From the NCBI RefSeq assembly GCF_000020965.1, contig NC_011297.1:496001-560000 (forward strand): a stretch of 64,000 nt of DNA, in the 5' to 3' direction. The translations under genes and the position numbers were made by a program. Below the pieces are notes generated by a model that saw only the letters and a list, made by a program, of their open reading frames with translations, searched no databases and was not told where the DNA came from. The DNA comes from Dictyoglomus thermophilum H-6-12. Its GTDB lineage: Bacteria; Dictyoglomota; Dictyoglomia; Dictyoglomales; Dictyoglomaceae. This document shows positions 2,014 to 46,281 of this stretch, one piece after another. How positions within the stretch are numbered: the stretch's first letter is position 1; every line of letters starts with the position of its first letter.

Positions 2014-3957
2014 ATGCGTAGTAAAAAGGGTTTAATAATTTTGTTTGTTTTGGTTTCTGTCCTTTTGTTATCAGGTGTAATTAATGGACAAAAAGAAAAA
2101 GTTGTGAGCTTACCTTTCTGGGATACACCAGGATTAGTTCCCTATTACTGGCAGGCACAACATATTTTAGCACAAGGCACTATTTTTGAGGGACTTTATG
2201 GTTATGCACCAGATCCTAAGAGCCTTGGTGGTGTAAAGGTTGTTCCAGTTATTGCACAAAGCTATAAAGTTTCAAAGGATTACAAAGTATGGACCTTCAA
2301 ATTAAGAAAAGATAAAAAATGGTCTAATGGTGATCCAGTAACTGCAAAAGACTTTGAATGGTCATTCAAATACTATGCAAGTCCTAAGATTCCAGACCTT
2401 CCTGCATGGGCAGGCCCACTTCAGTTCTTTGAAAACTTCTGGGCAGTGAAATCTGGAGCAGTTGATCCTGATAAACTTGGTGTAAAAGCTCTTGATGATT
2501 ATACATTGGAAATAAGACTTTCTACACCAAGATATGATATGAAAGAGTGGCTCTGTGTAGCTCAAGCTGTTCCAATCCACAGAAAAACTGTTGAAGCAGA
2601 TCCACAAAACTGGTGGAGACCTGGAAAGATCGTTGTCAATGGTCCATACATTCCAGTATCATGGACTCCTGGAAAGGACATGGTACTTGTAAAGAATCCC
2701 AACTATGTTGGTGAAAGAGGAAACGTGGATAGAATAGTACTTAAGTTCGGTGGACTTGGAATTCAACAGTATCAAGCAGGAGAGCTCGATGCTGCATTGA
2801 TCAATAATGTTGCTGAGTACAGATATGTAACATCTGATCCTAAACTTTCGAAAGAATTCCACGAGGATGTAATGGATTGCTTCTGGAACGGATATCAATG
2901 GTCTCGTGGATTTGATCCTATAATGGATAATGAAAAATTAAGAAAAGCTCTTGCTATGGCAATAGACAGAGAAAAACTTTGTAAAGACGTACTTGGAGGA
3001 AGAGCATTACCTCTTAATAAATATTGGCCTGACGGTAATCCTATTGGTGATAAACTTAAGGGAATACCCTTTGATGTAAACCAGGCTAAGAAGCTTCTTG
3101 CTGAGGCTGGATATCCAAACGGAAAAGGTTTGAAGACTCTTGTCTTCTACATCACTGGTGGTGGTGATCCAGTAGTAGAGTTCATAGTAGATCAATGGAA
3201 GAAGAACCTTGGAGTAAATGTAATAATTGAGAACATAGAATCTGGATTGTACTGGAACTCCTATGTATGGCCTAGCTTCTCACCTGATGCAAAGGCTGGA
3301 TTCACAGTAATGGGTGCACCAATGAACAACTTAGAGATTGGTGCGTTGTTCAAGAACTCTGACCATACACCTTGGTTCTTTGATTTCCCAACCTCTGCAA
3401 GAAAGAGATATTATGAGTTACAACAAGAGCAAGATGCATGGTTAAGAAAAGATGGCGGACTTACCGAAGCAGATTGGAAGCCACTTCTTGAGAAGAGAAA
3501 TACGCTATATGAAACTTATAAGAAGATTGTATCGACCGAGCCTGAAAAATTATGGGTTGCAGAACTTACTAAATCACCTACCTGGTATGAAAGATTTGAT
3601 GAACTTTACGAAAAATGGAAGGCTGCAAAAACTAATGCAGATAAGACCAATTACTGGAGACTTGCAGGAAGAGAAATTGTAGGACAAGAAATATTCCAGA
3701 ACTGGTATCTCAATATGACAGAGAGAGCAAGAAATGCTATAAGATGGAGATATAGAGCAGTTAATAGACCATTTAGTGAAGCAGTAAAGATTGTCCATTA
3801 TGGATTACAACTCATGCAAGATGCTTACTACATGGTACCAGTATACCTTGCAAAGGCTCAATGGGTACAAAATCCAAAACTTGAGGGCTTGATGCTCTAC
3901 AAGTTCTCTTGGGGTCCTGGATTCTTCAACTTCAAGTGGCTCAATCTCAAAGACTAA
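2014..3957 (+). CDS. extracellular solute-binding protein, family 5 (oligosaccharide/peptide ABC transporter)
   Basis: This 647-residue protein opens with a lysine-rich signal peptide and a hydrophobic core (residues 7-24). A mature domain of the SBP_bac_5 (DppA/OppA) family follows, with WTFKLRKDKKWSNGDPVTAKD near residue 90 and EKLRKALAMAIDREKL near 310. Family 5 proteins bind peptides in many bacteria. In Thermotogales-like thermophiles the same family often binds cello-, manno- or xylo-oligosaccharides. The LacI-type regulator upstream and three GH5 genes downstream favour a beta-linked oligosaccharide here. The start at ATG 2014 follows GGGGGAGGAG. A stem-loop at 3972-4000 separates it from the permease genes, which should raise its level relative to them. 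Confidence 0.9.
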   Translation: MRSKKGLIILFVLVSVLLLSGVINGQKEKVVSLPFWDTPGLVPYYWQAQHILAQGTIFEGLYGYAPDPKSLGGVKVVPVIAQSYKVSKDYKVWTFKLRKDKKWSNGDPVTAKDFEWSFKYYASPKIPDLPAWAGPLQFFENFWAVKSGAVDPDKLGVKALDDYTLEIRLSTPRYDMKEWLCVAQAVPIHRKTVEADPQNWWRPGKIVVNGPYIPVSWTPGKDMVLVKNPNYVGERGNVDRIVLKFGGLGIQQYQAGELDAALINNVAEYRYVTSDPKLSKEFHEDVMDCFWNGYQWSRGFDPIMDNEKLRKALAMAIDREKLCKDVLGGRALPLNKYWPDGNPIGDKLKGIPFDVNQAKKLLAEAGYPNGKGLKTLVFYITGGGDPVVEFIVDQWKKNLGVNVIIENIESGLYWNSYVWPSFSPDAKAGFTVMGAPMNNLEIGALFKNSDHTPWFFDFPTSARKRYYELQQEQDAWLRKDGGLTEADWKPLLEKRNTLYETYKKIVSTEPEKLWVAELTKSPTWYERFDELYEKWKAAKTNADKTNYWRLAGREIVGQEIFQNWYLNMTERARNAIRWRYRAVNRPFSEAVKIVHYGLQLMQDAYYMVPVYLAKAQWVQNPKLEGLMLYKFSWGPGFFNFKWLNLKD

Positions 3958-3971
3958 TTTGTGGTAAAATT

Positions 3972-4004
3972 GGGGGGGGGAGGGTTTATACTCTCCCCCC
4001 TTTT
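3972..4004 (+). terminator. intercistronic stem-loop between binding protein and permease genes
   Basis: A G-rich arm ending GGGGGGAG pairs with CTCTCCCCCC across a short loop and is followed by TTTT. The hairpin is strong with a short U-run, so it probably acts as a partial terminator or a 3' protector of the oppA message. The permease gene starts 30 bases later with its own SD (GAAGGAGG). Confidence 0.6.
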
Positions 4005-4029
4005 AAATTTATATAGAAGGAGGTAGAAG

Positions 4030-4992
4030 ATGGGCCTTTTAAAGTATATTTTACGAAGACTTTTTACTATCTTTGTATCAATCATAGTAGTGATAATAAT
4101 AACCTACGTACTCATGTGGCTTGCACCTGGTGATTTCTTTAATATTGCTCAATTTCAGGCAAGTGCTGGTAAAATTGCCACATTGACTCCTGAACAGCTC
4201 CAGGTATTAATAAAGGGTTTTGAAGAAAAATATGGATTAAATGTGCCTTTGTGGAAGCAGATATGGAATTATTTAAAAGATGCTTTTAGGTTTAAGTTTG
4301 GACCTTCTTTTTCTAACCCCAATGAGCCTATAGAGGTCCAGATAGCAAGAAGATTTCCTGTAACCGCAACTCTTGCTATACTTGCCATGGCTCTCGCTGT
4401 TGTTGTGGGGATCCCTCTTGGGGTTATTGCTGCTTTGAAGAGGAATACTTGGGTTGACTATGTTACTATGTTTATTTCAATGATAGGAAGTATAATTCCT
4501 GCATATCTTATTGGTGTTATAATGGTTATTATATTTAGCGTTTATTTGAGATGGCTTCCTACCTCAGGTTGGGAAACCCCTAAACAAATGATCATGCCTG
4601 TTATTACCGTTGCTGTAGGTCCCATGGCTATAATTGCAAGGTTTACAAGGTCAAGTCTTCTTGACGTGTTGAGCCAGGACTACATAAGAACCGCTTATGC
4701 AAAGGGTGGAACTGATAGAGCAGTAATTATGAGGCATGCTCTGAGAAACTCACTCTTACCTGTGGTTACCGTTATTGGACCTCAACTTGCGTTTCTCTTT
4801 ACTGGAACAGTTTGGATTGAGAACTTATTTAGAGTGCCTGGTCTTGGACAGCTCTTTGTTAATGCTGCTTCTATGAGAGATTATCCTCTACTTGTGACTT
4901 CGACTTTTATTCTCTCTCTATCAGTTATGTTAATGAACCTTTTGGTTGATATTATTTATGCCTTCTTAGATCCTCGAATTAAATATCAATAA
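4030..4992 (+). CDS. OppB/DppB-type ABC transporter permease
   Basis: A 320-residue inner-membrane permease of the usual OppB length. It starts with the family's amphipathic MGLLKYILRRLFTIF and first membrane helix, has about six helices in all, and carries the cytoplasmic EAA-type loop (DYIRTAYAKGGTDRAVIMRHALRN shape, residues 218-240) that docks on the ATPases. Start ATG follows AAGGAGG. It is the second gene of the operon and pairs with the OppC-type permease 41 bases downstream to form the channel for the family 5 binding protein. Confidence 0.93.
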   Translation: MGLLKYILRRLFTIFVSIIVVIIITYVLMWLAPGDFFNIAQFQASAGKIATLTPEQLQVLIKGFEEKYGLNVPLWKQIWNYLKDAFRFKFGPSFSNPNEPIEVQIARRFPVTATLAILAMALAVVVGIPLGVIAALKRNTWVDYVTMFISMIGSIIPAYLIGVIMVIIFSVYLRWLPTSGWETPKQMIMPVITVAVGPMAIIARFTRSSLLDVLSQDYIRTAYAKGGTDRAVIMRHALRNSLLPVVTVIGPQLAFLFTGTVWIENLFRVPGLGQLFVNAASMRDYPLLVTSTFILSLSVMLMNLLVDIIYAFLDPRIKYQ

Positions 4993-5032
4993 AAAAATGG
5001 TTTTAGTGAACTATAGAAGGAGGTTTTGCTAA

Positions 5033-5905
5033 ATGGAGGTTGCAATAAAGCAAAAAACAAGAAGAGCGAGTTATTGGTCTGCTGCTTGGAGAAGATTCAA
5101 AAGAAACAAGATGGCCGTTGCAGGACTGATTTATATCATTATTATAACCATAGCAGCCATATTTACTCCATTGATTGCTCCATATCCTTATGATGAACCC
5201 CATTATGCTTACACCTTTCAACCGCCAAGCGCTAAATTTTGGTTTGGTACAGATGACTTAGGAAGAGATATGTTTAGTAGAAACTTATATGCTATGAGAA
5301 ATGCACTTTTGATAGGATTTGGTTCTCAGATAGTGGTATTGATCATAGGTGTAATAATTGGTTCTATAGCTGGATTTCGTGGTGGAATGGTGGATACATT
5401 TCTTATGAGGGTTACTGACATAATGTATGCTTTTCCTACATTCCTTTTTAACGTTATATTAGTCACGGTTATGGGGAGAGGTCTATTTACTATTTTGGTG
5501 GCTGTAGGTCTTACAGGATGGGCTGGCATGGCAAGGCTTGTTAGAGGAATGGTTATGTATCTTAAGCATGCTGAATTTGTTGAGGCAGCAAGAGCTCTGG
5601 GAGCTAAAGATAGCTATATTATTAGGAAGTATATTTTACCAAATATGTTAGGTCCTATAATTGTGAGTCTTGCTTTTGGAATACCTAATGGAATATGGGT
5701 AGAATCTGGTTTGGCATTGATTGGTATGGGGGTAAGGCCTCCTATGCCTTCTTGGGGAAATATGATCGGTGCAGGTTTGGGTTATATCATGGCATTTCCT
5801 CATATGGTTATCTTTCCAGTTTTAACTTTTGCTCTTACTCTTCTCGCCTTCACATATGTAGGTGATGGTTTAAGAGATGCATTTAATCCAAGGAGTGAGG
5901 TATAA
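5033..5905 (+). CDS. OppC/DppC-type ABC transporter permease
   Basis: A 290-residue partner permease. It has the long cytoplasmic N-terminus with SYWSAAWRRFKRNKMAVAG that is typical of OppC, then about six membrane segments, the FGTDDLGRDMFSRN motif of the first periplasmic loop and the EAA loop (EFVEAARALGAKDSYI, about residue 180). The start follows AAGGAGG. The next gene's ATG is 4 bases after its stop, so translation is likely coupled. Confidence 0.93.
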   Translation: MEVAIKQKTRRASYWSAAWRRFKRNKMAVAGLIYIIIITIAAIFTPLIAPYPYDEPHYAYTFQPPSAKFWFGTDDLGRDMFSRNLYAMRNALLIGFGSQIVVLIIGVIIGSIAGFRGGMVDTFLMRVTDIMYAFPTFLFNVILVTVMGRGLFTILVAVGLTGWAGMARLVRGMVMYLKHAEFVEAARALGAKDSYIIRKYILPNMLGPIIVSLAFGIPNGIWVESGLALIGMGVRPPMPSWGNMIGAGLGYIMAFPHMVIFPVLTFALTLLAFTYVGDGLRDAFNPRSEV

Positions 5906-5909
5906 AGCC

Positions 5910-6890
5910 ATGGCAGAACTGTTGAGAGTTAATAATTTAAAAACTTACTTTGATAGATATGATGGTGTGGTTAAAGCTGTTGATGGTGTGAGTTATAAAT
6001 TGGATTATGGAGAAACATTGGCTATTGTGGGAGAAAGTGGTTCTGGAAAAACTCAATCGGTTCTATCTCTCGTGAGGCTCATTAAAGGAAATGGAAGAAT
6101 TGTAGATGGAGAAGCTATCTTTGAAGGAAAAGACTTGTTAAAGCTAAGTAAAGAAGAACTGAGACAAATAAGAGGTAAGGATATTTCCATAGTCTTCCAG
6201 GATCCTATGACCAGTTTGAACCCTATAATGAGAGTTGGTATCCAAATAATGGAGCCTATAATATGGCACAAAGTAATGTCAGATAAGGAAGCAAGAGAAA
6301 GGGCTATTGAGCTTTTGAGAGTTGTGGGAATTCCGGAATATAAAACAAGAGTATGGGATTATCCGTTCCAATTTTCGGGTGGAATGAGACAAAGAGTCAT
6401 GATTGCTATTGCTCTTGCATGTAATCCAAAACTTGTTATTGCCGATGAGCCAACAACAGCGTTAGATGTTACAGTTAGAGCTCAAATACTGAATTTGCTC
6501 TCAGATATGAAGGAGGAGTTTAAAACTAGTGTTATATTTATAACCCATGATATTACTCTTGCAATGAATTTTGCAGATACTATAATGGTGATGTATGCAG
6601 GAAAGATTGCAGAGTATGCTCCAATAGAGAAATTTATAAAGAATCCTTTGCATCCATATTCTAATGGTTTGATTACTTCTACTCTTGATATAAATGCAAA
6701 AGAGGGTTCTTTAAGACCTATACCTGGTAACCCTCCAAGCTTAGTCAACCCACCTTCTGGTTGTAGGTTCCATCCAAGATGTCAATATGCTCAGGATATT
6801 TGTAAAGAGGTAGAGCCAGAATATAGAGAAGTAGAAGATGGGCACTATGTAGCTTGCCATCTTGTGAAGGGAGGAAAATTCAATGCCTGA
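5910..6890 (+). CDS. OppD/DppD-type ABC transporter ATP-binding protein
   Basis: A 326-residue ATPase. It carries Walker A GESGSGKT, signature FSGGMRQR, Walker B LVIADEP and the H-loop FITHD. The C-terminal oligopeptide-transporter extension has the cysteine pattern GCRFHPRC...DICKEV...ACHL. The frame is open further upstream to 5877, but ATG 5910 has the better SD (AAGGAGTGAGG) and gives the standard N-terminus [14 protein letters not shown]. It overlaps the OppF-type gene by 8 bases. It energises uptake through the two permeases. Confidence 0.92.
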
Positions 6891-7830
6891 ATTATTAGTT
6901 GTTAAAAATCTAAAGAAGTATTTTCCTGTAAGAGGAAAACTATTGAAAGCAGTGGATAATGTATCTTTTTCCATAGAACAAGGAGAGACTTTAGGGCTTG
7001 TGGGAGAAAGTGGATCTGGTAAATCTACTCTTGGAAGAAGTATATTAAGACTTATTGAACCTGATGATGGGGAAATAATATTTGATGGTGTTGATATAAG
7101 AAAGCTTAGTGGGGAAGAATTAAGACAAAAGAGAAGATTTATGCAGATAATATTCCAAGATCCTCTCGCATCTTTGAACCCTGTAATGACTATAGGACAA
7201 AATATCGAGGATCCGCTAATAATTCATAATATAGGTACTAAAGAGGAAAGAAGAAGGGCCGTTGAAGAGCTACTGGAAATAGTAGGTCTTGGAAGAGATG
7301 TTATAGATGCTTTTCCTCATGAGTTTTCAGGAGGACAGCAGCAGAGGGTAGGAATAGCAAGGGCTCTTGCTTTGAATCCTAAATTTATCGTGGCAGATGA
7401 GCCTGTATCCTCATTAGACGTTTCAATTCAGGCTCAAATTGTTTCTCTCCTTTACGAGCTTAAGAGAAGATTTAAAATATCTTATCTCTTCATATCTCAC
7501 GACTTAGCTGTAGTAAGGTATCTATCGGATAAAGTAGCAGTTATGTATTTGGGAGCAATGATGGAGTTGGCTCCTAAGGAAGAGTTGTATCAGAATCCAT
7601 TGCATCCTTATACTAGGGCTCTACTTGCTTCTGTGCCTAAGATGCCAAGAGATGGAGAAAGACAAACAAGATTCCCTGCTCTGAAAGGTGAGGTGCCATC
7701 TCCAATAGATCTTCCTCCTGGTTGTAGGTTCCAAAGCAGATGTGAGTATGTGATGGATGTATGTAGAAAACAGGAGCCTGCGTTTAGGGAAGTATCTCCT
7801 GGACACTTTGTGGCTTGTCATTTAGTTTAA
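6883..7830 (+). CDS. OppF/DppF-type ABC transporter ATP-binding protein
   Basis: A 315-residue ATPase with Walker [10 protein letters not shown], signature [15 protein letters not shown], Walker [14 protein letters not shown]-loop LFISHD and the C-terminal cysteine motif GCRFQSRC...DVCRKQ...ACHLV. The start overlaps the end of the OppD-type gene, and GAAGGGAGGAAAATTC provides the SD. It closes the five-gene transporter. The first GH5 gene follows after 55 bases without a visible terminator, so transport and hydrolysis genes are probably co-transcribed. Confidence 0.93.
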
Positions 7831-33984: not shown

Positions 33985-34278
33985 TTAAAGGCTGTGAACA
34001 GGAGGAGTAGCTCCCAAGCGGGATCCAGAGAGGCCGGGTGAGGTGGAAGCCGGCTATCTGCGCGGGGAGTGAATGGGCCTGGGAGCCGCATACTGAAAGG
34101 GAAGATGATATTCTTCCCGAGTAAGCTATGCCGGAGTAGCCACCGTTATCAAGGCGAAGGGTATCGGAGGCGAGGATGACCTCCCGTACCTGAGAACGAG
34201 ATGGGCATTGTAGCCCAAGAAAGGTGGCACCGCGAGAGTAAACCCTCTCGCCCTTTTAAAAGGGCGAGAGGGTTTTTT
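33985..34278 (+). ncRNA. tryptophan T-box riboswitch (tRNA-sensing leader)
   Basis: A GC-rich structured leader in AT-rich DNA. Stem I carries the usual landmarks: GGAGGAGTAG, CCAGAGAGGCCGGGTGAGG-type loops and a specifier loop AGTGAATGGGCC, where TGG at 34074-34076 is the Trp codon. The conserved T-box AAGGTGGCACCGCGAG is at 34221-34236. Its bulge reads TGGC, which pairs with a tRNA ending GCCA, as expected for bacterial tRNA-Trp with G73. A terminator follows at 34243-34278. Uncharged tRNA-Trp should stabilise the antiterminator and allow transcription of trpEGDCFBA. Confidence 0.95.
34243..34278 (+). terminator. T-box-controlled terminator
   Basis: CCCTCTCGCCCTTTT (34243-34257) is perfectly complementary to AAAAGGGCGAGAGGG (34258-34272), followed by six T. 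The 5' arm can instead pair with the T-box region. Confidence 0.92.
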
Positions 34279-44996: not shown

Positions 44997-45911
44997 ATGG
45001 ATAAAGAAGAAAGAAGTTATCAACAGCAACCCCAATATGAAGTAGTAGAAGATGCGATTTTGTCTTTAAAAGATATAGGCGATAGAGCTGTAGAGATAAG
45101 AGGTGTTCCTACAGGTATAGAAGGACTTGATAACCTCTTTTTTACTACTAAAATTGAGAAAGGAAAAACAAAAGTTGTACCTTTAGGGGGTATTCCTCAG
45201 TATAGTGTATTTAACTTAACAGGAATCTCTGATACAGGTAAAAGTCTTATGGGAGAACAATTTGCTATAAAGCAAGCCTCCCTGGGGAATGCAGTGGCAT
45301 TTATAACAGTAGAGTCTCCAGCTCATTTTGTGGCTACATCAATGAAATCCAGGGCTGCTGCGATGGGGGTTGAAGAAAATGTAATTGATGAGAATATTGT
45401 GTTTATTGATGCTGCATCTTATTCTAAACTAAGGGAAGATGTACCAACTCTTCTTGCAACTCTTGCCCATGCCATAAAGAAATATAAGATAAAATATACG
45501 GTTATAGATTCAATAACGGGGCTTTATGAGGCTAAAGAAATGATGGCAAGAGTTATTGTTCGTCAACTTTTTAACTTTATGAAGAAATGGTATCAAACGG
45601 CCATATTCATATCTCAAAAGAGATCTAGTCAAGAGGAATTTTCAGCAGAAGCTGCAGGAGGTTTTGCCATATCACATATAGTGGATGGAACTATGGTTCT
45701 TTCAAAGGTCTTGATTAGCAGTCAATATATGGAGAGAATGTATAAGAGACCAATGGGAGAGCTGGTTAGGCTTTTTAGGATAGATGGTTGTAGGATGTGT
45801 GGACATAGCACTGATACTTATCTACTGGAGATTGATAAAAATGGTTTGGTGAGAATTGGACAGTCTTTGAAAGAACTCTCTAAGGGGGTGAAGGTAGATG
45901 CCAATACTTAG
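44997..45911 (+). CDS. single-domain KaiC/RecA-superfamily ATPase
   Basis: A 304-residue ATPase with one KaiC-type core. An N-terminal segment of about 45 residues leads to VPTGIEGLDNLFF, then Walker A GISDTGKS (residues 76-83), FITVESPAHFV near 103, Walker B YTVIDSITGLY (about 167-177) and AIFISQKRS near 202. A small cysteine element CRMCGH (265-270) precedes the C-terminus. There is no second KaiC domain and no KaiA/KaiB nearby. It overlaps the downstream helix-turn-helix gene by 14 bases, so the two act together. From memory, such KaiC/near-KaiC pairs are known mainly from archaea. SD is GGGGGAGATGATG. Confidence 0.85.
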   Translation: MDKEERSYQQQPQYEVVEDAILSLKDIGDRAVEIRGVPTGIEGLDNLFFTTKIEKGKTKVVPLGGIPQYSVFNLTGISDTGKSLMGEQFAIKQASLGNAVAFITVESPAHFVATSMKSRAAAMGVEENVIDENIVFIDAASYSKLREDVPTLLATLAHAIKKYKIKYTVIDSITGLYEAKEMMARVIVRQLFNFMKKWYQTAIFISQKRSSQEEFSAEAAGGFAISHIVDGTMVLSKVLISSQYMERMYKRPMGELVRLFRIDGCRMCGHSTDTYLLEIDKNGLVRIGQSLKELSKGVKVDANT

Positions 45912-46281
45912 TGGCGACGAACTTCCTGTAAAAGAGGATGAACTCGATAACCTTGCCATGAAGACTTTTTTAAAGACATTGGATATACTGGGAGGTCCAA
46001 GAAAATTAATTCTTTACAGAAATCTTACATGGGTTCCGAGTCTTATTGAGGCTTGTTATGCGGTGATATTAAGAGATAGATATATGAAAACCGAAGCAGA
46101 GATAGCAGAGTTTCTTGGATTAACCAAGCAAACAGTGAGAAATATTCTTAAGGCTGATCCTGATGTGGTTCTTGATATTCTTGAAGATGAACTTAAGAAA
46201 AAGGAGATTAAAACTCATGTGGCAGGAGGGCTTGCAAAGTTAGCCTATAGAAAAGTAAAGGAGGAGTTTGGTATAGAGTAA
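45898..46281 (+). CDS. helix-turn-helix partner of the KaiC-like ATPase (near-KaiC regulatory domain type)
   Basis: A 127-residue protein. An acidic N-terminus precedes a helical segment (NLAMKTFLKTLDILGGPRKL). A helix-turn-helix follows near residues 62-90 (KTEAEIAEFLGLTKQTVRNILKADPD). A helical C-terminus rich in Lys and Glu completes it. The gene starts inside the end of the KaiC-like gene and stops 7 bases before the methyltransferase gene. The architecture matches what I recall as the near_KaiC probable regulatory domain (TIGR03879), always encoded beside a KaiC-domain protein. DNA targets and signal are unknown. Confidence 0.75.
   Translation: MPILSGDELPVKEDELDNLAMKTFLKTLDILGGPRKLILYRNLTWVPSLIEACYAVILRDRYMKTEAEIAEFLGLTKQTVRNILKADPDVVLDILEDELKKKEIKTHVAGGLAKLAYRKVKEEFGIE

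Follow-up and report, generated by a model that had tools for sequence, protein, structure and literature searches.

A KaiC-like ATPase with a single domain and the small, probable helix-turn-helix (HTH) protein encoded directly behind it have been found to co-occur with reverse gyrase in bacteria as well as in archaea, and in several lineages the pair adjoins the reverse gyrase gene in apparent operons, which together constitutes the new result of this analysis. The pair itself is not new, since both families, TIGR03878 and TIGR03879, had been in NCBIfam beforehand, and the unit in the window, i.e., the whole analysed stretch of 64,000 nucleotides from Dictyoglomus thermophilum H-6-12, is by its sequence a further example of an already catalogued, uncharacterised family pair. 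As a tentative explanation, to which we assign a probability of about 0.45, the pair may be a thermophile unit for the heat adaptation of DNA topology, likeliest one that depends on ATP and regulates or assists reverse gyrase together with other heat-response genes. A catalogued pair without an assigned function that tracks reverse gyrase in both domains of life is a concrete candidate for the regulation or assistance of this enzyme, and the reverse gyrase association is the part that merits follow-up.

The two open reading frames overlap by 14 nt and have been recovered just as originally predicted (Table 1). The ATPase matches TIGR03878 over the full profile (positions 1-259 of 259; 460.9 bits at a cut-off of 232.2; 1e-138) and contains a single copy of the KaiC/RecA domain PF06745 (Pfam, 3e-55), and the partner matches TIGR03879 equally completely (1-91 of 91; 135 bits, cut-off 65.1; 9e-40). 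Adjacency to a KaiC-type ATPase gene, which is a membership feature of TIGR03879, has been found in the window and recurs in relatives. These matches and the recurrent pairing bear out the prediction of a one-domain KaiC ATPase that overlaps a small, probably DNA-binding partner; a second KaiC domain is absent from the 304 residues, and kaiB is missing as anticipated, a search of the complete genome with PF07689 having given no match. The statement that such pairs have no assigned function has held as well, NCBIfam labelling the partner a 'probable regulatory domain' only. In a survey of 290 bacterial genomes across ~260 genera, for which matches above cut-off have been counted, the ATPase occurs in 21 and the partner in 19 genomes, and since all 19 partner genomes also carry the ATPase (Fisher p ~8e-28), the pairing goes beyond chance. 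Two bacterial genomes have the ATPase without the partner, one at a contig edge and the other with a short partner remnant directly downstream. The order of ATPase followed by partner, with a short gap or overlap, is repeated across dozens of loci; two Aquificales-type genomes hold the two genes apart and have retained both. One genome (G095) contains two TIGR03878 copies, on contigs C12 and C2 (403 and 247 bits).

Table 1. Features of the gene pair, with positions counted from the first nucleotide of the window.
Feature	Position	Strand	Remarks
ATPase gene	44997..45911	+	304 aa, KaiC-like RecA-fold, TIGR03878 thermo_KaiC_2
Beta-hairpin insert, family-specific	45138..45182	+	aa 48-62, before the GGIP segment; gap in profile alignment
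Walker A GISDTGKS	45222..45245	+	aa 76-83
Candidate catalytic Glu106 (ITVES)	45312..45314	+	invariant, 66/66
Walker B TVIDS (Asp171)	45498..45512	+	D171, S172 invariant
Hyperconserved loop SQKRSSQEEFSAEAAGG	45612..45662	+	aa 206-222, nearly invariant
Insert of ~12 residues	45717..45755	+	aa 241-253, relative to KaiC and KaiC_1; alignment
RIDGCRMCGH	45777..45806	+	aa 261-270; CRMCGH = 45789-45806
Partner gene	45898..46281	+	127 aa, TIGR03879 near_KaiC_dom, all-helical
LTW motif, invariant	46024..46032	+	aa 43-45; alignments
Helix-turn-helix region	46093..46152	+	aa 66-85; weak Pfam HTH and sigma-70 region 4 matches
C-terminal motif THVAGGLAKLAY	46213..46248	+	H107, A109, G110, A113, A116 invariant

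Conservation has been counted over 66 non-redundant members of the ATPase family. The signatures of the RecA/KaiC superfamily are present and invariant (G76-K82, E106, D171 and R266, the last in register with KaiC), G76, D79, T80, G81 and K82 of the Walker A motif being unchanged in 66/66 members, and ATPase activity is predicted from these intact signatures. Glu106 stands at the position of the catalytic glutamate pair of KaiC CI, and its candidate role is one that we presume by homology. The genuine additions relative to KaiC are the beta-hairpin and the short insert at aa 241-253. The hairpin is missing from KaiC and KaiC_1 proteins in the profile alignment and has been modelled as strands 48-54 and 57-62 by AlphaFold2; the ATPase model (pLDDT 89.8) finds its closest PDB fold in PH0284 (2dr3, TM 0.82 by target length). 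The loop SQKRSSQEEFSAEAAGG sits at the position of the L2 loop of RecA, which binds DNA or partners, and a partner- or DNA-binding role would suit it, because it is nearly invariant and yet of low confidence in part of the model (pLDDT <50 for aa 217-222).

The model of the partner (pLDDT 84.7) consists of helices throughout; two of them, 66-73 and 77-85, form an HTH-like pair and fit the HTH region. A fold search of the PDB with this model has returned no significant match, with HTH domains of ParB as the top ones, and the probable DNA binding is thus based on Pfam HTH matches that are weak (E ~0.001, every one below cut-off). The window partner is a short form without the C-terminal extension of ~90 residues of most other members; short forms measure ~125-135 aa, and long forms, with an extra C-terminal domain, ~200-220 aa (L015, L018, L022, L028 and most Campylobacterota).

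Reverse gyrase has been described as the only protein that is universal in hyperthermophiles and missing from mesophiles (PMC6878951). Scored with TIGR01054 above cut-off, it has been found in 14/19 bacterial genomes with the partner and in 4/271 without, counts that, like all co-occurrence counts given here, are not fully independent of ancestry. For the bacterial ATPase, 15 genomes hold both, 6 the ATPase only, 3 reverse gyrase only and 266 neither (p ~9e-18), and the link persists both without Dictyoglomota (4e-11) and when counted by family (4e-11), the ATPase being present in 9 of the 11 bacterial families with reverse gyrase. The archaeal set has comprised 297 genomes that are related to one DPANN archaeon and have been taken as archaea. 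There, reverse gyrase occurs in 64/66 genomes with the partner and in 15/231 without (both, partner only, reverse gyrase only, neither: 64/2/15/216; p ~1e-47), and the corresponding counts for the ATPase are 21/2/58/216 (p ~1e-11). Among 14 named control genomes, reverse gyrase exceeds the cut-off in Thermus, Thermotoga, Methanocaldococcus and Sulfolobus, and the partner is present in the first three of these and in none of the 10 genomes without reverse gyrase. Within one genus, G025 carries reverse gyrase together with ATPase and partner, and G172 has none of them above cut-off; the pair without reverse gyrase above cut-off has been seen in G020, G052, G080 and G284 and in the archaeal G474 and G518. 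Such co-occurrence may reflect thermophily alone. An incomplete literature search has retrieved no paper that connects the pair with reverse gyrase, KaiC and reverse gyrase being co-mentioned in a single paper, and there incidentally.

Since co-occurring genes alone could merely mark thermophily, apparent shared operons provide evidence beyond it. In the flanks examined, reverse gyrase is the commonest neighbour of the pair apart from the pair's own genes. ATPase, partner and reverse gyrase follow one another in the same direction in Nitratiruptor and other Campylobacterota (L084, L094, L103, L107, L118), with partner and reverse gyrase usually overlapping by 4 nt, and they are also consecutive in G549, a relative of a DPANN archaeon, and in G416 and G557. 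Reverse gyrase is the divergent neighbour of the pair in Hydrogenothermaceae (L109) and lies 2-7 kb from it in G514 and G424, and in the sister genus within Dictyoglomaceae (L193/G004, L194/G005) it is followed by a TIGR03877 KaiC gene and a TIGR03879 partner, which form a second pair. Rough estimates put the probability of such adjacency by chance at ~2e-7 for 7/66 loci and at ~8e-4 when four lineages only are counted. Small trees of ATPase and reverse gyrase both group the Campylobacterota and the archaeal G416/G557/G514/G424, and the L109 and G004/G005 copies are placed differently, with low support. In the archaeal locus L192 (G510), a TIGR03877-like KaiC gene has been found directly upstream of reverse gyrase.

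The window genome itself has the pair and reverse gyrase ~0.8-1.1 Mb apart (the lower value holding around the circle, if the genome is circular), so that a connection between them would have to work in trans, and it places the pair beside genes for a dehydrogenase and an RNA-methyltransferase-like protein. Its reverse gyrase gene, at 2323-7468 of locus L195 (G000:C1:1676000-1684000), stands directly behind recF, and both are divergent from grpE and dnaK, whose promoter region contains a heat-shock operator that resembles CIRCE with approximately one mismatch. Within the window, no CIRCE operator has been found near the pair, a comparison of four Dictyoglomaceae genomes has revealed nothing clear in the way of a conserved operator upstream of it, and no structured RNA has been detected at the pair, the sole match in the window being a T-box leader RNA elsewhere (33985-34258, + strand, 106 bits). 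In Nautiliaceae the pair adjoins pyruvate kinase, and in five WOR-3/Hydrothermota loci it heads a conserved four-gene order that continues with DUF505 and a ClpP-like SDH-type serine protease (PF01972); a DUF505 gene adjoins the pair in the archaeal locus L204, too.

The original prediction had regarded such pairs as mainly archaeal, which the distribution does not support. A scan of named genomes has yielded 327 related loci, and the best 80 of these belong overwhelmingly to thermophilic bacteria of many phyla (the bacterial groups being Aquificota, Campylobacterota, WOR-3/Hydrothermota, Desulfofervidaceae, Kryptoniota, Aminicenantes, Calditrichota and Thermotogota) and otherwise to a few DPANN archaea, with hosts that are largely vent and hot-spring organisms; in the archaeal set, the ATPase is present in 23/297 genomes. 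As to the question raised with the prediction, whether homologs are widespread in bacteria and have a known role there, they are widespread in thermophilic bacteria, and a role is not known. Neither does the phylogeny favour the suggested lateral transfer from archaea. In the ATPase tree, a bacterial group contains the window protein as sister to that of Candidatus Thermokryptus, with which it shares 76% identity, and archaeal sequences lie mainly on the side opposite to this group. Because the window copy nests among bacteria in this position, no sign of a recent archaeal transfer is seen, and an archaeal origin of the copy finds no support in the tree. A transfer of the ATPase between bacterial phyla is likely, since the more distant copy of the sister Dictyoglomaceae genus groups with Calditrichota and a single Dictyoglomaceae clade has been rejected (AU p 0.02, in a data set with long branches). 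Cargo of mobile elements or phages has been rejected, as searches have returned no match in phages and viral contigs and a single one in plasmids, on the Thermomicrobium megaplasmid.

Under the reading that we prefer, an ATP-dependent unit for the heat adaptation of DNA topology, the ATPase would assemble into a ring that holds ATP between adjacent subunits, R266 and H270 reaching the nucleotide of the neighbour there like the K-x-R-G-[ST]-x-H segment of KaiC. We infer that both proteins are in contact and that the HTH partner would bind DNA or the DNA-topology machinery according to the nucleotide state of the ring, the presumed direction of regulation being that the unit would regulate or assist reverse gyrase and other heat-response genes in an ATP-dependent manner. 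In Pyrococcus furiosus, PF1931 (KaiC-domain) and PF1932 (predicted regulator) are strongly heat-induced, carry motifs of the heat-shock regulator Phr and are probable Phr targets (PMC10746257); from their description and adjacent numbering, PF1931 would correspond to a TIGR03877 protein and PF1932 to the associated near_KaiC partner. The rgy gene of Nautilia rises >100-fold upon heating (PMC2628731). That the pair is, beyond this, a dedicated and previously unrecognised reverse gyrase partner system, i.e., an ATP-gated regulator or loading factor common to bacterial and archaeal hyperthermophiles, appears rather unlikely to us; if true, the pair would join reverse gyrase as a second such marker protein of high-temperature life.

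The varied neighbours of the pair, its unlinked position in the window genome, the genomes that hold it without reverse gyrase and the heat induction of PF1931/PF1932 as part of a general heat-shock regulon would all agree with a general ATP-dependent thermophile regulator of many heat and energy genes, whose link to reverse gyrase consists of lifestyle and co-transfer only. However, lifestyle alone would not lead one to expect that the pair shares apparent operons with reverse gyrase in three or more separate lineages, and we hold this explanation to be doubtful. We regard as improbable that the pair acts as an accessory of DNA repair or recombination like archaeal RadC, with the ring working on ssDNA or RadA/RecA and the HTH partner targeting it to DNA, for the ATPase does not reach the cut-offs of the repair models, RadB included, and the only repair gene that recurs beside the pair is reverse gyrase. 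Such a role would fit the common RecA/KaiC superfamily, the conserved loop at the L2 position, the presence of SSO2452 among the sequence matches of the ATPase, the hexamer rings reported for RadC proteins and their modulation of RadA (PMC4080772), and the discussion of reverse gyrase in DNA repair, too (PMC2628731).

The CRMCGH string, which the original prediction had taken for an added element and a possible redox gate, is present, but it is not an addition. Joint and profile alignments place RIDGCRMCGH opposite the K-x-R-G-[ST]-x-H segment of KaiC and KaiC_1 with no gap, R266 and H270 being conserved and in register, and identify it as the counterpart of this segment, which in KaiC reaches the nucleotide of the neighbouring subunit. 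R261, D263, G264, R266 and H270 are invariant in the 66 members and C265 is kept in 65/66, whereas the second cysteine is C in 42/66 and replaced by S, T or A or lost in 24/66, KaiC having S/T at this site. A redox- or metal-gated switch with the CxxC as redox sensor would draw on the retained first cysteine and on the two cysteines of the window protein; the variable second cysteine and the homology to a nucleotide-contacting segment make it very improbable, and a family-wide redox or metal site at the CxxC has been rejected on these grounds. The KaiC homology by itself would also admit a primitive timekeeper akin to the cyanobacterial oscillator, to which we give practically no credence, as the genome is without KaiB, the ATPase has a single domain and the hosts of the best loci live largely at vents and hot springs. 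With 35 bits on the circadian KaiC model TIGR02655 (cut-off 546) and KaiB absent, this reading has been rejected.

Compared with known systems, the window ATPase shares the RecA/KaiC ATPase core with the CI domain of cyanobacterial KaiC, whose K-x-R-G-[ST]-x-H is in register with GCRMCGH, and differs from this two-domain clock protein with its KaiA/KaiB partners in its single-domain architecture. ArlH, a KaiC-like, ATP-binding putative regulator (PMC8978795), is archaellum-specific, and its model gives the window ATPase 44 bits at a cut-off of 215. Archaeal RadC (SSO2452, RadC1/RadC2) likewise has a single RecA/KaiC domain, but the sequence similarity of SSO2452 is weak, and RadC acts with RadA in recombination, with no HTH partner described in the part of the source that was accessible (PMC4080772), whereas the window ATPase has a probable one. 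The TIGR03877 (thermo_KaiC_1) proteins of the PH0284 family have the same fold, are also paired with a TIGR03879 partner and lie beside reverse gyrase in some genomes; they lack both inserts of the window ATPase as well as the GCRxCGH variant, and with 61.3 bits at a cut-off of 307.25 the window protein is not a member. From the pair of TIGR03878 and TIGR03879, finally, nothing essential separates the window unit, which scores far above both cut-offs, has its genes adjacent as in dozens of loci and carries the short form of the partner.
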